From a virus, in the IMG/VR virus record IMGVR_UViG_3300025127_000210, positions 1-27,114 of that record: DNA of 27,114 nucleotides, one strand, 5' to 3'. Positions 3-27,113 of this stretch are shown one piece after another; within the stretch, counting starts at the first letter, position 1; each line of letters starts with the position of its first letter. A program made the translations under genes and the position numbers. A model generated the notes under the pieces. It had not been told where the DNA came from. It worked only from the letters and a program-made list of their open reading frames with translations, and made no database searches.

Positions 3-1841
3 TCATCTACCATTGGCGCAGATACAAGTGGTCAATCAAATCATTATACTTCTCAAAATTTAAATGCTTTTGATGTTATGCCAGATAGTCCAACCAATAA
101 TTTCGCTACTCTTAATCCTCAAATAGGAAAAGCACTAACTACCTATGTTGACCCTCGCCACGGAAATTTAGAAATTGATACTACGAATACTGGCAGAGGT
201 ACAACTTTTAGCACAATGGCTATGCCGACAGGAACGGGAGAGAAATATTACGCAGAATATAGATATAAGGCTGATACTGGGTTGATGAGAATTGGAATTA
301 TATCTGTTGACCAAGCAAATAAATATCTGGAAACCAATAATTTTGACTCACCTACAATTGACAATGTAAGTTATACAAGCTCTACAGGTAAAATTGCTGT
401 TAATGGCGCATCACAAGAAGTCGTTGCGACTTATACCGTTGGGGATGTCATAGGCATGGCCGTAGATTTAGAAAATGGCACAATTCAATTTTCCAAAAAT
501 GGTAGCAATGTTGGTTCAGCAGTATCACAATCTTTCATAAGCAGTAACGAAATGTTATTTGCCGCTGGTGATAGTTCCAATAGTCAAGATGTAAGATATT
601 CAGCTAATTTTGGTCAGGACAGCACTTTTGCAGGAGATGAAACAGTCGCAACAAATACGGATACTAATGGTATAGGCGCATTTCATAGTGCTGTACCTTC
701 AGGTTTTAAGGCATTATGTGCCAAAAATCTTCCAGAACCAGCTATCTCACCAAAAGATGATGACCTTCCAGAAGATTACTTTGAAGCAAATCTTTGGACA
801 GGAAATGGTTCAAGTCAAAGTATATCTAGTTATGAATTTTCACCAGATTGGGTTTGGATAAAAGAGAGAAGTAGTACGTCAAGTCACTACCTAGTGGATA
901 CAATCAGAGGAAATACTTTATTTATGCAGTCTAATTCCACAACTGATGATACAACTAATACTGTAAATGTTACAAGTTTTGATAGTAATGGGTTTAGTCT
1001 AGGCAGTGGCGGCACAACAAATCAAAATACTCAAACATACGTAGGTTGGGCTTGGCTTGCAGGGGGAACACCATCAGCAACAAATAGTGCAGGAGCAGGA
1101 AATGCTCCCACATCAGGTTCTGTTTTGATAAATGGGGTAGCTTCCACAGCCAATTTAACAGGAACGATACCAGTAACAAAATTATCAGCCAACACAGAAG
1201 CAGGTTTCAGCATAGTGTCCTATACTGGTACTGGTTCAAATGCTACCATTGACCACGGACTAAGTAGCGCACCTGAGATGATTATTGTCAAAAGACGCGA
1301 CACATCAGGAACTAATTGGGCTATTTATCACACTGATTTAATAAATGCCTCTTACTATTTATGGTTAAATCTCACAAGCGCACAGGCTGTTGGTACTAAT
1401 ATTTGGAACAGTACAGACCCTACATCTTCTGTGTTTTCAGTAGGCACTAGTTCTAACACAAATTCATCTTCTGGTACTTACATTGCCTATTGCTTTCATT
1501 CTATAAAGGGGTACTCTAAAATAGGAAGTTATACAGGAAACGGAAGCACTGACGGCACAATGGTTTATACAGGGTTTCGTCCTGCTTGGGTTTTAATTAA
1601 ACAATCTAGTAGCGCAGGCAATAATTGGAATATTATTGATGCTGTAAGAGATGTTAATAATCCCGCTGGTACAGGTTTAAGAGCAAGTACAGATGCGGCA
1701 GAGGCAACTGGGTTCACGTTAGATTTTTTGTCGAATGGTTTTAAACTACGATTAACGGGTACGGCTATGAATGGTAGTAGTAGTACCTATGTCTACATGG
1801 CATTTGCTGAGATGCCCTTTAAATATGCGAATGCAAAATAG
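3..1841 (+). CDS. SPRY/lectin-like tail protein with three C-terminal repeats (5' partial)
   Basis: The frame is open to the left edge with no stop, so the gene starts outside the window; the ATG at 78 is probably internal. It is likely a virion surface or tail-fibre protein. Bases about 174-580 encode a SPRY/concanavalin-like beta-sandwich, with the SPRY-type stretch GDVIGMAVDLENGTIQFSKN. Bases about 778-1827 encode three diverged copies of a roughly 100-residue module. Each copy has an aromatic/hydrophobic core: PDWVWIKE, PEMIIVKR and PAWVLIKQ, followed by W or Y residues and a Gly/Ser/Thr-rich segment. This layout is familiar in marine phage tail proteins (I believe the module corresponds to DUF7483, not checked). 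The protein is rich in Ser, Thr, Asn and Gly. It ends 10 bases before the fibre-assembly-like gene. Function as an adhesin is inferred from domain type and position. Confidence 0.75.
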   Translation, partial: SSTIGADTSGQSNHYTSQNLNAFDVMPDSPTNNFATLNPQIGKALTTYVDPRHGNLEIDTTNTGRGTTFSTMAMPTGTGEKYYAEYRYKADTGLMRIGIISVDQANKYLETNNFDSPTIDNVSYTSSTGKIAVNGASQEVVATYTVGDVIGMAVDLENGTIQFSKNGSNVGSAVSQSFISSNEMLFAAGDSSNSQDVRYSANFGQDSTFAGDETVATNTDTNGIGAFHSAVPSGFKALCAKNLPEPAISPKDDDLPEDYFEANLWTGNGSSQSISSYEFSPDWVWIKERSSTSSHYLVDTIRGNTLFMQSNSTTDDTTNTVNVTSFDSNGFSLGSGGTTNQNTQTYVGWAWLAGGTPSATNSAGAGNAPTSGSVLINGVASTANLTGTIPVTKLSANTEAGFSIVSYTGTGSNATIDHGLSSAPEMIIVKRRDTSGTNWAIYHTDLINASYYLWLNLTSAQAVGTNIWNSTDPTSSVFSVGTSSNTNSSSGTYIAYCFHSIKGYSKIGSYTGNGSTDGTMVYTGFRPAWVLIKQSSSAGNNWNIIDAVRDVNNPAGTGLRASTDAAEATGFTLDFLSNGFKLRLTGTAMNGSSSTYVYMAFAEMPFKYANAK

Positions 1842-1851
1842 GAGATAAACA

Positions 1852-2337
1852 ATGCCGTGGAAATTAGGTACAAAAACAATTAATATGGGAAGAAGTTGGA
1901 CAGATTCTAATGGTAATCAGTACCCAAGTAATTGGTTAACACTCACTACAGATGCAGAAAAGAAAGCTGTAGGTCTTAAATGGGAAGCTGACCCCACACC
2001 TTTTGACAGCAGGTTCTACTTGTCAGCCGGTAATCCTAGAGATGTAGCTGAGTTAAAAACAGCTTGGATAGCTAATACAAAGAATACAGCAAATTCATTG
2101 TTGTCCCCTACAGATTGGTACGTGATACGAAAAGCAGAAGATAGCACTAAAACTATTCCAACAAATGTAGCAACTTATCGTGCGGCTGTTAGAACAGCTT
2201 CAGGAACAATCGAAACAGCAATAACAAATGCGTCTGACCATGCGGCATTTGTAGCCTTGTGGGATATTCCCGTAGACAGTGATGGCAACCCTACAGGTAA
2301 CGCACCAATACATAACTGGCCTGACCCACTGGAGTAA
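1852..2337 (+). CDS. Tail fibre assembly-like protein
   Basis: This is a 161-aa protein with AGGAG placed 7-8 bases before ATG. The second half (residues about 85-140) has the pattern LLSPTDWYVIRKAED...IPTNVATYRAAVRT, which resembles the 'DW...YR..LR' signature of tail-fibre-assembly and DUF4376-like proteins found next to fibre genes. A tryptophan-rich, Pro-rich tail (HNWPDPLE) ends the protein. It lies between two fibre/adhesin-type genes, which fits a fibre chaperone or small tail accessory role. There is no signal peptide or membrane segment. The family resemblance is by eye and moderate; a small structural tail protein is the alternative. Confidence 0.5.
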   Translation: MPWKLGTKTINMGRSWTDSNGNQYPSNWLTLTTDAEKKAVGLKWEADPTPFDSRFYLSAGNPRDVAELKTAWIANTKNTANSLLSPTDWYVIRKAEDSTKTIPTNVATYRAAVRTASGTIETAITNASDHAAFVALWDIPVDSDGNPTGNAPIHNWPDPLE

Positions 2338-2340
2338 TAA

Positions 2341-3810
2341 ATGGCATTTGCTAGTTCCGCATTTTCTGAAGTACCTTTTAGTGCGTTATCAAGCGTTACT
2401 GAAATAGCGCAAGGAATAGGTAGTTCTGCGGGAACTTCTAGTGTAACTGGTTCTGCCACACTGACAGCAAAAGGAACAGGTTCATCCGCAGGAACTTCTA
2501 ATGTAAGTGGTTCTGCTCTATTAATAGGGCAAGGAGTAGGTAGCTCTGCAGGAACTTCTTCTACTGCAGGAACAGGTATACGAGTACACAATGTAACCGC
2601 CACATCTGCAGGAACTTCTTCTACTGCAGGAACAGGTATAGGGGTATTTAGTGCAACTGCCACATCTGCAGGAACTTCTAACGTAAGTGGTTCTGCTACA
2701 AGTACCCAACTAGCAGCAGCATCTTCAGCAGGAACTTCTAACGTAAGTGGTTCTGCTTTACTAGTAGCAGAAGGGGTAGGTAGTTCTGCGGGAACTTCTA
2801 ACGTAAGTGGTTCTGCTTTACTAGTAGCAAAAGGGGTGGGTAGCTCTGCAGGAACTTCTAGTGTAAGTGGAGTTGCAGGGGATATAGAGAGCGGGGTAGG
2901 TTCATCTGCAGGAACTTCTACTGTAGTTGGCTCTGCTTTATTAGTAGCAGGAGGAGTAGGCAGTTCTGCAGGAACTTCTAGTGTAAGTGGAGTTGCAGGA
3001 AGTGTAACTGATGGAGCAGGTTCATCCGCAGGCACTTCTAGCGTAAGTGGTTCTGTAAGCGTAGTAGCAGGAGGAGTAGGCGATTCTGCAGGAACTTCTA
3101 GTGTAACTGGTTCTGTTACAAGCACTCAACTGGCAGTAGCATCTTCAACAGGCACTTCTAGCGTAAGTGGTTCTGCAGGGTTAACAACAAAGGCAATCGG
3201 TAGCTCTGCAGGAACTTCTTCTACTGCAGGAACGGGCATACGAGTACACAACGTAACTGGCACATCTGCGGGTACTTCTTCTACTGCGGGCAATTCTGAT
3301 TTAGTAGCTGCAGGAACAAGTAACAGTGCTGGTACTTCTTCTGTGATAGGCAGTTCAGCCCTCATAGGAAAAGGAAGTGGTAGTTCTGCGGGAACAGCAA
3401 CTGTAAGCGGAACAGGTTTTCTATCGTTTAGATTTGAAGCAAATCTATATGAAAGAGATAGAGTAGCTTTTGTACCAGCAGAGGAAGCTAGAATTGTCTA
3501 CGCTCCTGAAGACAGAGATAGACAGGTATATCCGTCCGAAGAAATTACTAGAAAAGTTTATGTATTAGAAGATGATAGAAGAATAGTATATGCAAGTGCT
3601 GAAGAAGTAAGAAAAGTATATGTAGCAGAAGAGATACCAAGAGTTGCCTTTGTATCAGCAGAAGAAGCTAGAATTGTTTATATACCCGAAGACAAAACTA
3701 GAAAAGTTTATATTTTAGAAGATACCCCAAGATTAATATACGTAAATGTTGAAAAATTAAGAAGGGTAAATGTAGTTGAAGAATTATCACGAGTAGCAAA
3801 GGTGGCATAA
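2341..3810 (+). CDS. Tandem-repeat virion protein (20-residue and 10-residue repeat arrays)
   Basis: A 489-aa protein built almost wholly from repeats. After a 28-residue leader come 17 units of exactly 20 residues starting S(A/T)GT(S/A), with consensus SAGTSSVSGSALLVAGGVGS (residues 29 to about 359). A short linker (about 360-372) follows, then 12 units of 10 residues with consensus xRxVYVxEEx (373-489). The first array is small, polar and Ala/Gly/Ser-rich; the second alternates charge and beta-branched/aromatic residues, which suggests stacked beta-strands. GGAG sits 6-7 bases before ATG. It lies between the fibre-assembly-like gene and the fibre-tail adaptor, so a tail shaft or adhesin is inferred. 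No catalytic motif is visible. Cysteine is absent. Confidence 0.7.
   Translation: MAFASSAFSEVPFSALSSVTEIAQGIGSSAGTSSVTGSATLTAKGTGSSAGTSNVSGSALLIGQGVGSSAGTSSTAGTGIRVHNVTATSAGTSSTAGTGIGVFSATATSAGTSNVSGSATSTQLAAASSAGTSNVSGSALLVAEGVGSSAGTSNVSGSALLVAKGVGSSAGTSSVSGVAGDIESGVGSSAGTSTVVGSALLVAGGVGSSAGTSSVSGVAGSVTDGAGSSAGTSSVSGSVSVVAGGVGDSAGTSSVTGSVTSTQLAVASSTGTSSVSGSAGLTTKAIGSSAGTSSTAGTGIRVHNVTGTSAGTSSTAGNSDLVAAGTSNSAGTSSVIGSSALIGKGSGSSAGTATVSGTGFLSFRFEANLYERDRVAFVPAEEARIVYAPEDRDRQVYPSEEITRKVYVLEDDRRIVYASAEEVRKVYVAEEIPRVAFVSAEEARIVYIPEDKTRKVYILEDTPRLIYVNVEKLRRVNVVEELSRVAKVA
2425..3411 (+). repeat. 60-bp coding tandem repeat, 17 copies
   Basis: Sixteen complete 60-bp units (2425-3384) and one partial unit follow each other without a single insertion or deletion. 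Each encodes S(A/T)GT(S/A) plus 15 residues. Near-identical units occur far apart: units 3 and 14 both read SSTAGTGIRVHNVT, and units 5 and 12 both contain TSTQLA. This points to duplication or recombination between units. DNA identity is high in the SAGTS core and lower in the unit middle. Confidence 0.95.
3457..3807 (+). repeat. 30-bp coding tandem repeat, 12 copies
   Basis: The C-terminal 117 residues form eleven full 10-residue units and one 7-residue unit, for example ARIVYAPEDR, TRKVYVLEDD and VRKVYVAEEI. Period 30 bp is kept throughout with no indel. Units containing ARIVY and VAFV recur 60 residues apart, so a higher-order duplication of about 180 bp is likely. Confidence 0.9.
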
Positions 3811-3811
3811 A

Positions 3812-4833: not shown

Positions 4834-6383
4834 TGCCAGATCGTTGGCAAACCTATCCATTAGAATTTTCAGGGGGATTGATAAGCAATCTCAGTCCGTT
4901 ACAGCATGGCAGCACTGCTCCGGGGTCTGCTAGAACTTTAACAAATTTTGAACCATCAACTGATGGGGGGTATCGCAGAATAGAAGGATTTGAAAAATTT
5001 AATTCTAATACTGTTACTGGACAAAACAATATTTTAGGAGTTGTTTTTTACAAAGATAGAGCTATTGTTGCTCGTGATCAATCTGCAGGAGATCCAAAAT
5101 TATTTGCAGGAGCTACATCAGGAGCGTATGTAGATTTATCAACCAGTTTAACTTTGGGAACTAATTCTTCTAGAGTACGTTTTGCTAGATACAATTTTGA
5201 CGGGACAGATAAATTATACATAGTGGATGGTATAGACTATCCTTTAATTCTTGCTGGAGTTTCTGCAAGTGATTTAAGCCAGTTGTCTAGTCCTTCAGAT
5301 ATACAAGGAGCTAGTCACGTCACCGAATTTAAAGATCATATATTTTTAGCTAAAGGTGAAAATTTAGTGTTCTCTGCACCTTTTTCAGATACTGACTTTA
5401 CAGCAGCATCAGGGGGCGGTATAATCAATGTAGGTAGCGACATCACAGCAATAATTCCTTTTCGTGAACAACTTATAGTATTCTCTGAATCTAAAATCAA
5501 TAGAGTGGTTGGTAACAGTATTTCTGATTTTAAAATGCAACCAATAGCGGATGATATAGGGTGTATATCGGGAGACACGGTACAAGAGATAGCTGGTGAT
5601 GTAATATTTTTAGGGCCAGATGGATTAAGAACGCTAGCAGGCACAGAGAGAAATCAAGACTTTAATCTTGGAGCTATAACTAAACCTATACAAAAAGAAA
5701 TGGTATCTCTTACTACAAACAGCACTTCTTTTGCTTCTCTTGTAATACGTGAGAAATCTCAATACAGAATACTTGGATTTAACACGAATGTAACAGAATC
5801 CGCATCTAAAGGCATTATAGGAACACAGCTACAAACTGCACAAGGCATGGCAATAAATTGGGCAGAAACAAGCGGAATAAAGGCGTACGTTGCAGATTCT
5901 GTATACGTTGGAAAAGTAGAAACTGTCCTATTTGCAAACGACGATGGATATGTTTACAAAATGGAAAGCGGCAATAGTTTTGATGGAGACGATATAACTG
6001 CTAGTTTTTCTACTCCGTATTTTCCTATATCAGACCCTAGATTAAGAAAAACAATATATAGAGCAACTGTGTACACAGAACCACAAGGAAGCGTAGCGTT
6101 AGATTTTAATTTAAAATACGATTTAAGTGGAGAAGGTGTGATCGAGCCAGAAACAATAACTCTTAGTAATACGTCTGCATCTGGGAATGTTTTTACATTT
6201 GGCAGTTCTAATGCTGTTTACGGTACAGCAAAATACAGCGGAGAAACTTTACAATCAATATTTGATACACAAACATTAGGTTCAGGATTTACTGTATCTT
6301 TGCAGTTTGAATCTAGTGGTACAACGCCCCCGTTTGCAATGGACGCAGCAGTCATAGAATACGGGCAATACGGAAGAAGGTAA
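4833..6383 (+). CDS. Tail nozzle/stabilisation-like beta-rich protein
   Basis: A 516-aa protein beginning WQTYPLEFSGGL, with TLTNFEPSTDGGYRRIEGFE at residues about 35-54. The 'L.NFEP...GGYRRI.G' motif is typical of podovirus tail stabilisation or nozzle proteins. The remainder contains many short beta blocks (LYIVDGID, IFLAKGENLVFSAP, VIFLGPDGLRTL), consistent with a propeller-like fold. GAGGG sits 7 bases before ATG. It follows the tube/adaptor gene and precedes the long fibre, as in T7-like tail modules. T7 gp12 is longer (794 aa), so this is a compact version or a P22-type plug analogue; I cannot decide between these. Confidence 0.6.
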   Translation: MPDRWQTYPLEFSGGLISNLSPLQHGSTAPGSARTLTNFEPSTDGGYRRIEGFEKFNSNTVTGQNNILGVVFYKDRAIVARDQSAGDPKLFAGATSGAYVDLSTSLTLGTNSSRVRFARYNFDGTDKLYIVDGIDYPLILAGVSASDLSQLSSPSDIQGASHVTEFKDHIFLAKGENLVFSAPFSDTDFTAASGGGIINVGSDITAIIPFREQLIVFSESKINRVVGNSISDFKMQPIADDIGCISGDTVQEIAGDVIFLGPDGLRTLAGTERNQDFNLGAITKPIQKEMVSLTTNSTSFASLVIREKSQYRILGFNTNVTESASKGIIGTQLQTAQGMAINWAETSGIKAYVADSVYVGKVETVLFANDDGYVYKMESGNSFDGDDITASFSTPYFPISDPRLRKTIYRATVYTEPQGSVALDFNLKYDLSGEGVIEPETITLSNTSASGNVFTFGSSNAVYGTAKYSGETLQSIFDTQTLGSGFTVSLQFESSGTTPPFAMDAAVIEYGQYGRR

Positions 6384-24425: not shown

Positions 24426-24446
24426 CTAGTAAAAATATCATACTAG
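24426..24446. promoter_or_regulatory. Operator-like palindrome over the -10 box
   Basis: CTAGTA (24426-24431) and TACTAG (24441-24446) form a perfect inverted repeat with a 9-base centre. It covers the -10 box and the expected start of transcription of the downstream gene, where a repressor would block RNA polymerase. The half-site is short and AT-rich, so chance is not excluded. No repressor gene is in the window. Confidence 0.3.
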
Positions 24447-24465
24447 GCAACCACAGATAAGTCAA
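24437..24465 (-). promoter_or_regulatory. Sigma70-type promoter for the ssDNA-binding-like gene operon
   Basis: On the - strand TTGACT (24465-24460) is followed by exactly 17 bases and TATGAT (24442-24437): five of six matches to consensus in each box. Transcription would start near 24430, leaving a leader of about 28 bases with an AAAGGAG ribosome site. The region is the only intergenic gap above 12 bases in the window (41 bases, 24402-24442). The -35 lies in the end of the polymerase gene. This points to use of host RNA polymerase for this operon. Confidence 0.7.
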
Positions 24466-25981
24466 GCCAGTTGATTCCTATTTTCAATTCTATCTCAACA
24501 GGCATATCATACTCGACATTATACCGTCGTGCCGTTTCATTTGGTAAAGATAGCATAGCCTTCTTCATCAAATCTATACAAATCTGTTCTTCGTCTGGAT
24601 GTACATCAATCACTATTGAATCGTGTACTGTATTACAAAGCACAGATTTTAAATTATTGTGTTTCATTAAATTATATAACTTAACCAGCGCAATGGGCAG
24701 TAAGTCTGCTGTTGCAAATCCTTGAACAGGATAGTTACAAATAGCAGTTCTGTTTGTGGCTGTACCCCATCGTGTCCATTGTGCGTCAGGAAACGCATAT
24801 TGCCTACCTGATGGTAACGTTATTTGCTTTTGTTGCACAGCTTCTTTTTGTAGACTTTCATGCCACTCCGTTACTCCAAAATATTTTTCTTTGAATGCAC
24901 GGTAGTATCGTTGTTGATCTTCCGTTCCCGTGACACCCCCATACAAAGGCTTAAACGTGTGAGCTTTAGCCTCTTGTCGCGTACAACCGATGATGTTTGC
25001 GGTATAACTATGTACGTCTAATTTATCGACTACATCTGCATACGCTTGTGCGTCGTTCGATAAGAAACCCGCTACACGAAACTCTAGTTGCGAGTAATCC
25101 CCTTCAAGTATCTTACCATTCTCAAACCTACTCTCGACCACTTGACGTATAGCGAAGGTATTACCTCGTGGCATATTTTGAAAGTTCGGGTTACGAGAAG
25201 AAAGGCGACCCGTCGCTGTAATCGTCTGCATAAATTCTGGGTGTATAAAACCATATTCGTCCACATTGTTTTCCATTCCTTCTACAAACGTACTAAGGTA
25301 AGTACGCAACGCGTTGTATCGCACGTACGTTTCTACAAATTCTCGTGCATCTCCTGTCAAATCCCCTCTACGTTCTTCCAGTGTCACCTTATCTGCTTTG
25401 AAACCAGCAGATGCCACGTCTATCACCCCTCGTGGTACAAGTTTAAATCCAGCTACCTCTCGTGTTCGTTCGTACGTAACACCTTTACCACCGCACAACT
25501 TACAAACTCTTCGCATAGAACTTTCTGTGCCGTCTTTCTTTATGTAAGCGTATCTGCCTTCTCCACCACAGTTATAGCACTGCCTTCCGATTGTTTTGTA
25601 CATAACGTCCGTCATGCTTCTTACACTTCGGGTAAAATCTTTACGTGACATTCTTCTGCGTAGTTTAGGTTTCTTTGTCGCCCCCCTCATCTCGTGTCCT
25701 AGATTGAACACTTGTGACCACAGAGATTTATCTTTTACTTTACGTGAATACAAAAGCATACTTCTATCATCTGGACTAGCAAGGTTTATCGGAGTATCCC
25801 CCATAGCCTCGCGTGCTAGCTCTACTAACTTTACTTCTAGCCCGTCCATCTCTTCTTGATACTGTTTACGTATCTTATCTAACGTATCAAGATTAATTCG
25901 TAGACCGTTATACTCTATGTCTGCAAGTACGCGGGTCATTTCTAATGATAGTCTAAGCGTAGGTATCAAAGTGTTTTTCAT
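24443..25981 (-). CDS. Family A DNA polymerase, polymerase domain only, with DnaJ-type zinc finger
   Basis: A 512-aa polymerase. ATG 25981 is chosen because GAGGAG lies 7 bases upstream; the frame extends nine codons further only to a TTG. Motif A is LEGDYSQLEF (D295), the O-helix is RQEAKAHTFKPLYGG and motif C is VHDSI (D454). F343 lies where E. coli Pol I has F762, unlike the Tyr of T7. The early thumb segment has LADIEYNG and PINLASPDDRSMLLYSR, as in T7-like phage polymerases. Residues 135-167 carry CYNCGGEG and CKLCGGKG, two CxxCxGxG units of the DnaJ type, the feature reported for HMO-2011. The 3'-5' exonuclease domain is absent and lies in the upstream gene, overlapping by 29 bases in a different frame. 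Confidence 0.93.
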   Translation of the reverse strand: MKNTLIPTLRLSLEMTRVLADIEYNGLRINLDTLDKIRKQYQEEMDGLEVKLVELAREAMGDTPINLASPDDRSMLLYSRKVKDKSLWSQVFNLGHEMRGATKKPKLRRRMSRKDFTRSVRSMTDVMYKTIGRQCYNCGGEGRYAYIKKDGTESSMRRVCKLCGGKGVTYERTREVAGFKLVPRGVIDVASAGFKADKVTLEERRGDLTGDAREFVETYVRYNALRTYLSTFVEGMENNVDEYGFIHPEFMQTITATGRLSSRNPNFQNMPRGNTFAIRQVVESRFENGKILEGDYSQLEFRVAGFLSNDAQAYADVVDKLDVHSYTANIIGCTRQEAKAHTFKPLYGGVTGTEDQQRYYRAFKEKYFGVTEWHESLQKEAVQQKQITLPSGRQYAFPDAQWTRWGTATNRTAICNYPVQGFATADLLPIALVKLYNLMKHNNLKSVLCNTVHDSIVIDVHPDEEQICIDLMKKAMLSLPNETARRYNVEYDMPVEIELKIGINWLDLSVVA

Positions 25982-26522
25982 CAAACAACTCCTCAAATGT
26001 TGTACCAAACTTAGCTAACTGTCCTAGCGCGACTTGTTCTGTAGACTCCACGTCTGCTTCTCCGTATTCTTTTACTATTTCCCACGGTATATCGTAGAAT
26101 GTCTTGCCGCTAGATAAATAATCCTTAGTCAAGTCTTTCTTCTTTTCTACCGTGCTATACTTTTTTGATAAAGCTTGCAAGTTCAAAGGCCACCCACGAG
26201 ACTTAGACAAGATATATTCTGCAACCATAGTATCGTAGATGTGACCGTCATACTTAAAACCACAATCTCTTATCCAACACAAATCAAACTTGAGGTTTTG
26301 ACCTACAACGACATCAGCCAAATTTAAAGCATCTTGAAATATTTTAAAGCCGTCGTTACTAGGCTGTTGTGTAGAGTGATAGAAACACAGATAGTTAGGC
26401 TTACCACCCAGCCACTGATAACCAATAGAAACTAATCGATTACCAAAGTAAGGCAACGGGGTCATACCTCCCGACTGTTTCATAATGTGTGTAGTTTCTA
26501 CATCAAAGACTAGCACGCGCAT
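25953..26522 (-). CDS. DEDDy 3'-5' exonuclease (detached proofreading domain of the polymerase)
   Basis: A 189-aa protein matching the exonuclease domain of family A polymerases. Exo I is VFDVETT (D7, E9), Exo II is GQNLKFDLCWI, and Exo III is YGEADVEST with the Y-x3-D spacing of DEDDy enzymes. The protein stops (TAG at 25953) where a joined polymerase would run on; its last residues, EELFDEKHFDTYA, overlap the first codons of the polymerase gene. Exonuclease plus polymerase come to about 700 aa, close to T7 gp5 (704 aa), so the pair is a split polymerase. GAGGAG lies 10 bases before ATG. It overlaps the HNH gene by 20 bases. Proofreading in complex with the polymerase subunit is inferred. 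Confidence 0.9.
   Translation of the reverse strand: MRVLVFDVETTHIMKQSGGMTPLPYFGNRLVSIGYQWLGGKPNYLCFYHSTQQPSNDGFKIFQDALNLADVVVGQNLKFDLCWIRDCGFKYDGHIYDTMVAEYILSKSRGWPLNLQALSKKYSTVEKKKDLTKDYLSSGKTFYDIPWEIVKEYGEADVESTEQVALGQLAKFGTTFEELFDEKHFDTYA
25989..25994 (-). promoter_or_regulatory. Shine-Dalgarno that sets the polymerase start
   Basis: GAGGAG reads on the - strand inside the last codons of the exonuclease gene, 7 bases before ATG 25981. It decides the polymerase start and argues for independent or coupled initiation rather than ribosomal frameshifting. Confidence 0.75.
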
Positions 26523-26820
26523 GTATTTCTTTCTCCTCGATAGTAGATTTTATTTGATGGCAATTCCTACACAAAACTTGGCACTTTCGTATCTCATCAA
26601 ATAGTTTTTTAAGCGAACCCAACGTTAGCCTAGATACAGATGCAAGTTTAGTTTTCCTATCTAGATGATCAAAATCAAGAGCGCACCCTTGTGCATTGTA
26701 TCCACATTCAGCGCACCCTTTTCTTTCTTTGTATCGATTCAGATGGTGCTTACGTCGGTTTCTACGCTTGGCAGCGTACAAAACTTTTCTGTGCTTTTGC
26801 TCTGGTGTTCTTATACGCAT
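26503..26820 (-). CDS. HNH endonuclease
   Basis: A 105-aa basic protein with a Zn-type HNH fold. CAEC (C36, C39) and CRNC (C84, C87) would hold zinc. LDFDHLDR gives D51-H52, and LCRNCHQIK gives N86 and H88. The Lys/Arg-rich N-terminus (HRKVLYAAKRRNRRKHH) would hold DNA. It is a free-standing homing-type or packaging-type HNH nuclease. It overlaps the helicase stop by one base and the exonuclease by 20, so it is inserted neatly in the operon. Its place next to a split polymerase recalls homing endonucleases that spread in phage polymerase genes; this link is inference. Confidence 0.85.
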   Translation of the reverse strand: MRIRTPEQKHRKVLYAAKRRNRRKHHLNRYKERKGCAECGYNAQGCALDFDHLDRKTKLASVSRLTLGSLKKLFDEIRKCQVLCRNCHQIKSTIEEKEIHARASL

Positions 26821-27113
26821 CAGTAATATATCCCTGTTTGTATGTCTATGTGTGAGTTAATCATGCCGTGCCATCCGTTTATTTTATTTTTAGATACGCA
26901 TATATGACGCATAGTGTTTTCTACATCACTAGATCCAGTTTTGCCAATACCTATTATCATATCTGCTTCTCCAGCTTTACCCGTGCGCGAGTTGTCCAAC
27001 ATGGAGTAGTCTATAAACTGTCTATCATGCCCCTCATAGTTTGCCTGACTAACAGCCCAGACAAGACAACGATTACGTTTCGCTATCTCACGAGCGTACA
27101 CGTACGTTGCTTT
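26820..27113 (-). CDS. RecA/DnaB-like replicative helicase, C-terminal fragment
   Basis: The frame is open to the window edge, so this is the last 97 residues of a longer gene; the GTG at 27101 is not a real start. LVWAVSQAN fits a Walker B strand followed by the Gln/Asn sensor of RecA-fold helicases (DnaB: LSQLNR). MLDNSRTGKAGEADMIIGIG matches the segment corresponding to DnaB 'DLR.SG.IEQDADVV'. It ends with a C-terminal beta strand and Lys/Asn stretch (RHICVSKNKINGWHGMI). It would unwind DNA at the phage fork. The gene lies upstream of HNH, exonuclease and polymerase. The Walker A part lies outside the window, so a Sak4-like recombinase ATPase is an alternative. Confidence 0.7.
   Translation of the reverse strand, partial: KATYVYAREIAKRNRCLVWAVSQANYEGHDRQFIDYSMLDNSRTGKAGEADMIIGIGKTGSSDVENTMRHICVSKNKINGWHGMINSHIDIQTGIYY

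Follow-up and report, generated by a model that had tools for sequence, protein, structure and literature searches.

We found that the replicative DNA polymerase of a virus is encoded by two overlapping genes, one for the 3'-5' exonuclease and one for the polymerase domain. The split at the exonuclease/polymerase boundary is genuine and is conserved in numerous marine relatives of phage HMO-2011. From our sequence comparisons and structure models, we consider it probable that this locus specifies an HMO-2011-type replicative polymerase of family A as two polypeptides, which are produced in a coupled manner and assemble as in the Klenow fragment into a proofreading enzyme.

The split locus and its recurrence

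The window, meaning the whole stretch of DNA that was analysed, comprises the entire virus record of 27,114 bases. The split polymerase locus lies on the minus strand, with the exonuclease gene followed by the polymerase gene, and has the following features, listed in the direction of transcription.

26820-27113, minus strand: C-terminal part of a DnaB-like helicase, truncated at the edge of the contig (phrog_19, E 3e-10)
26503-26820, minus strand: HNH-like endonuclease ORF in the helicase-exonuclease interval (weak match to PF01844, E 0.19)
26533-26538, minus strand: GAGGAG, read from the sequence as the likely ribosome site for the exonuclease, 10 nt ahead of its ATG
26522-25953, minus strand: exonuclease gene, ORF with ATG start and TAG stop, 189 aa
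25989-25994, minus strand: GAGGAG, Shine-Dalgarno sequence of the polymerase, 7 nt ahead of its ATG and within the exonuclease FEEL codons
25953-25981, minus strand: exonuclease/polymerase overlap of 29 nt, with the polymerase frame at +1 relative to the exonuclease frame
25981-24443, minus strand: polymerase gene, ORF with ATG at 25981, 512 aa
25481-25579, minus strand: part of a DnaJ central domain within the polymerase gene, with the motifs CYNCGGEG and CKLCGGKG (weak match to PF00684)

The stop codon (TAG) of the exonuclease falls within the polymerase gene. The HNH-like ORF overlaps the start of the exonuclease gene and is a neighbour, not a part of the enzyme. Two ORFs lie downstream of the polymerase gene, followed further on by a DUF3310 gene and ribonucleotide reductase. 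The preliminary description of a 189-aa exonuclease, a polymerase ATG offset by +1 and a GAGGAG 7 nt upstream agrees with the sequence and the ORFs, and the two parts add up to 701 aa, as expected from its remark on a T7-sized polymerase.

The exonuclease matches PF01612 (Pfam, E 2.9e-9) and its PHROG annotation is DNA polymerase / exonuclease subunit, while the polymerase matches PF00476 (Pfam, E 5e-50). All residues that define a DEDDy 3'-5' exonuclease are present, namely D7/E9 in Exo I, N76/D80 in Exo II and Y153/D157 in Exo III, and D7, E9, D80, Y153 and D157 are 100% conserved in 39-40 aligned split relatives. Motifs A, B and C of family A polymerases are conserved as well (DYSQLE, K339 with LYGG, and VHDS). 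Since the catalytic residues of the exonuclease and the three polymerase motifs are kept, both proteins are likely active.

A tblastn search of IMG/VR yielded at least 599 relatives. Among the best 80 of these, two genes in different frames were found wherever the exonuclease was present, with a +1 offset throughout, and no fused gene was detected. When the search was extended by using distant members and also a DNA pattern, it gave 281 distinct related loci, comprising 182 split loci, 90 fused loci and 9 loci without a detected exonuclease. The +1 arrangement occurs in 180 of the 182 split loci, and the genes overlap in nearly all of them. The split thus recurs among HMO-2011-type relatives, a point that the preliminary description had left to alignment. 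A 1-base indel, introduced by sequencing or assembly into an intact gene, would likewise yield a +1 shift, but 180 distinct loci from many metagenomes carry the identical split, the ribosome site is selected (see below) and versions with separated genes exist. The recurrence in independent assemblies rules out sequencing error, to which we assign practically no chance. The earlier argument that the ribosome site speaks against a simple error is upheld by its selection.

Two proteins and an embedded ribosome site

The position of the cut was determined by alignment and structure prediction. When the polymerase of phage HTVC033P is aligned to Klenow, the cut maps between the exonuclease and polymerase domains. 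A naturally fused homologue (L425) was folded with AlphaFold2 (pLDDT 90.7, pTM 0.83), and the resulting model, which matches Pol I structures in Foldseek, contains an exonuclease helix at residues 147-172, a loop at 173-176 and the first polymerase helix at 177-196. Homology to the window polymerase starts at residue 172. For the window polymerase, AlphaFold2 gave a model of this chain alone, with a pLDDT of 87.4 and a first helix at residues 6-21; in the PDB it matches large fragments of bacterial Pol I. The alignments and the L425 model place the cut in the interdomain loop.

The ribosome site of the polymerase is embedded in the last codons of the exonuclease gene, and its codon usage indicates that it is under selection. 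The first Glu codon of the FE(E/D) sites is GAG in all 113 loci (113/113), compared with 47% of the Glu codons elsewhere in the exonuclease genes (846/1788); where other Glu-Glu pairs occur, the first codon is GAG in 28 of 168. Matches to the Shine-Dalgarno sequence of 4 nt or longer precede 88% of the junction starts and 24% of 7,840 control ATGs; in all of these counts the loci are related and hence not independent events, and the automatic choice of start codon is wrong in some rows. Lineages with KEL, GEL, ERM or GDL instead of FEEL retain an AGGA/GGAG-like string. The codon bias and the retention of this string across lineages bear out the internal ribosome site that was first noted in the window.

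The junction differs among the split loci. One to several small unrelated genes lie between the exonuclease and polymerase genes in L336, L359, L377, L380 and L399; the first inserted gene has a weak helix-turn-helix match and, close to its end, the conserved motif GHWMITKPW. In L389, the junction holds an HNH gene. At the junctions of L254, L255 and L258, the open polymerase frame reaches 49 codons further upstream than the aligned start, which is longer than elsewhere.

The exonuclease and polymerase are separate proteins and not a frameshift product, as far as can be read from the gene arrangements. A programmed +1 ribosomal frameshift within the overlap, making a full-length fused polymerase alone or beside the separate proteins, would require the +1 relation and the overlap that nearly all split loci display. 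A constant frame is, however, also expected if one split was inherited. In the L336 lineage and in L389 the genes lie apart with other genes in between, so that a frameshift fusion is impossible there. The stretch that is open in both frames is down to 11-23 nt in some overlapping lineages and has no common sequence, and the selected Shine-Dalgarno sequence also argues against frameshifting. As a general mechanism, frameshift fusion is ruled out by the separated genes and the short, unshared overlap stretches, and we regard frameshifting in any form as highly improbable. The separated genes corroborate the earlier proposal of two distinct polypeptides.

We propose that the enzyme was ancestrally one chain and that the cut arose in the loop linking its polymerase domain to its 3'-5' exonuclease domain. 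Translation would begin with the exonuclease, and the polymerase would be initiated separately at its own ATG from the embedded Shine-Dalgarno sequence. To judge by the overlap alone, the polymerase start is probably coupled to the end of exonuclease translation, which lies 29 nt downstream. Such coupling would hold the amounts of the two proteins similar, and cannot apply in loci where the genes lie apart. The exonuclease and polymerase domains of Klenow are separable, and the two proteins described here would most likely assemble in a Klenow-like manner into a polymerase that is proofread in trans.

The exonuclease could instead act on its own, in host DNA degradation, recombination or end processing, with a polymerase that has lost proofreading. 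This would fit separate genes that are free to move apart and a C-terminal tail, FGTTFEELY, which is common to the split exonucleases, including those in loci where the genes lie apart, and is absent from the fused homologues. However, the exonuclease is homologous along its length to the exonuclease domain of the fused relatives, adjoins the polymerase in almost every locus and has kept all its catalytic residues, and a replicative polymerase without proofreading would be costly. We therefore consider a standalone role unlikely. Similarly doubtful is a variant of the two-subunit enzyme in which the tail holds the exonuclease as a proofreading subunit that can detach, with these abundant phages varying their proofreading through the ratio or binding of the subunits. 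In L380 the tail stretch runs into the beginning of the following gene and may act as the ribosome site of that gene, and a role of the tail in the protein is thus only a lead.

In T4-like phages, split polymerases are linked to a mobile HNH endonuclease. An HNH-like ORF is located directly upstream of the exonuclease, as in the window, in 35 of the 140 split loci checked, and the L389 junction holds an HNH gene, both of which would fit a mobile HNH endonuclease that caused and maintains the split. Most split loci, however, have a junction without any gene, the upstream ORF is patchy and flanks the exonuclease at its opposite end, and the HNH gene of L389 looks inserted later, into a gene already split. 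An HNH origin of the split is thus very unlikely. The patchy distribution of the upstream ORF resembles that of a mobile gene. In L389 the HNH-type gene (5000-6100, minus strand) seems to use the polymerase start position of relatives, and the polymerase has its own ribosome site.

Relation to HMO-2011-type phages and origin of the split

Compared with HMO-2011-type polymerases (HMO-2011 gp12, HTVC033P gp22 and those of CRP phages), the window polymerase has 36-48% identity and the exonuclease approximately 31-38%. The hallmark of these polymerases is an incomplete DnaJ domain that carries two CXXCXGXG motifs and lies between the exonuclease and polymerase domains (PMC9038755). Both motifs are present in the window polymerase, CYNCGGEG at residues 135-142 and CKLCGGKG at residues 160-167; the match to PF00684 (DnaJ central domain) is weak, with an E of 0.0017 that falls below the curated cut-off. 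The affiliation extends beyond the polymerase in long related contigs: of 12 such contigs of 35-56 kb, 10 encode TerL (53-58% identity to HMO-2011) and 10 an HMO-2011 capsid protein. The gene order of the window is also like that of HMO-2011, where the helicase adjoins one unsplit polymerase gene (gp11-gp12). A host search of bacterial genomes returned one distant match only, in a Planctomycetaceae MAG.

In the polymerase tree, the split clade groups with the HTVC033P, CRP and HMO-2011 polymerases. The deeper branches are weakly supported, and the outgroups are very long. The tree was rooted with Bf7 and Vibrio 1.015, and the deeper order is unsure because long branches meet at this root. Another tree, in which PaP3, ICP2 and further outgroups were included, was uninformative owing to very long branches. 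The split loci and the fused loci nearby form a clade with 100/99 support and a weak basal order. Eight metagenomic fused polymerases are close to the split clade (L412, L425, L392, L376, L317, L416, L407 and L335). HTVC033P-like loci are fused as well, and no isolate carrying this split was found in the phage collection. L412, L425, L392, L376, L317 and L416 are placed close to or inside the split clade, and may represent re-fusion. A tree with all split rows as one clade withstands the AU test (p 0.38), so that one split, with or without re-fusion, and a few independent splits are all possible.

HMO-2011-type phages reportedly belong to the dominant viruses of the sea, and their polymerase serves as a marker gene. 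In a published survey, the phylogeny was limited to polymerase sequences of more than 540 aa (PMC9038755). The split polymerases, at approximately 512 aa, would fall below this filter, and the lineage may therefore be undercounted if such sequences were omitted. Because its genes occur fused, overlapping and apart, the polymerase of this group also provides a natural series for asking whether proofreading can act in trans.

Comparison with known split and fused polymerases

The window resembles HMO-2011-type polymerases in homology along both parts, in the DnaJ insertion with its two zinc motifs, in its neighbouring genes, and in the TerL and capsid genes of the long split contigs. It differs in having two genes, whereas the HMO-2011, HTVC033P and CRP isolates checked all have one fused chain of approximately 678-716 aa; all reported HMO-2011-type polymerases are single chains, unlike that of the window. 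With the Klenow fragment of E. coli Pol I the window has two domains in common, and its split maps to the boundary between them, but E. coli Pol I is a single natural chain without the DnaJ-like insertion.

The preliminary description considered T7-like polymerases to be normally one chain. The cultured HMO-2011-type phages checked do have one chain, but in all LUZ24-group phages the polymerase and 3'-exonuclease are in separate genes, and phiEco32 is reported to be organised similarly (PMC3517423); the arrangement in the window is thus not without parallel. LUZ24-like phages, phiEco32 and the window have the 3'-5' exonuclease as its own gene, with the helicase upstream of it. In the LUZ24-like phage PaP3, the annotated 175-aa exonuclease (gp39) and 545-aa polymerase (gp32) are approximately 1.7 kb apart and do not overlap, in contrast to the 29-nt overlap in the window. 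The PaP3 polymerase has 27% identity to that of the window over 191 aa (E 0.001), and the exonucleases have no sequence match. Being so distant in sequence, the PaP3-type and window splits probably arose separately.

Family A phage polymerases in two ORFs are also found in Vibrio phage ICP2 (approximately 400 and 294 aa; at 1718-3811 in ICP2_2013_A_Haiti) and in the OM43 phages MEP401/402, with one gene between ORF13 and ORF15 of MEP401 (PMC10580990). These are cut inside the polymerase domain, while the window is cut at the exonuclease boundary. Separate exonuclease genes were already known from a few other phages, and what is new in the window is a different lineage, adjacent and overlapping genes, and an embedded ribosome site.
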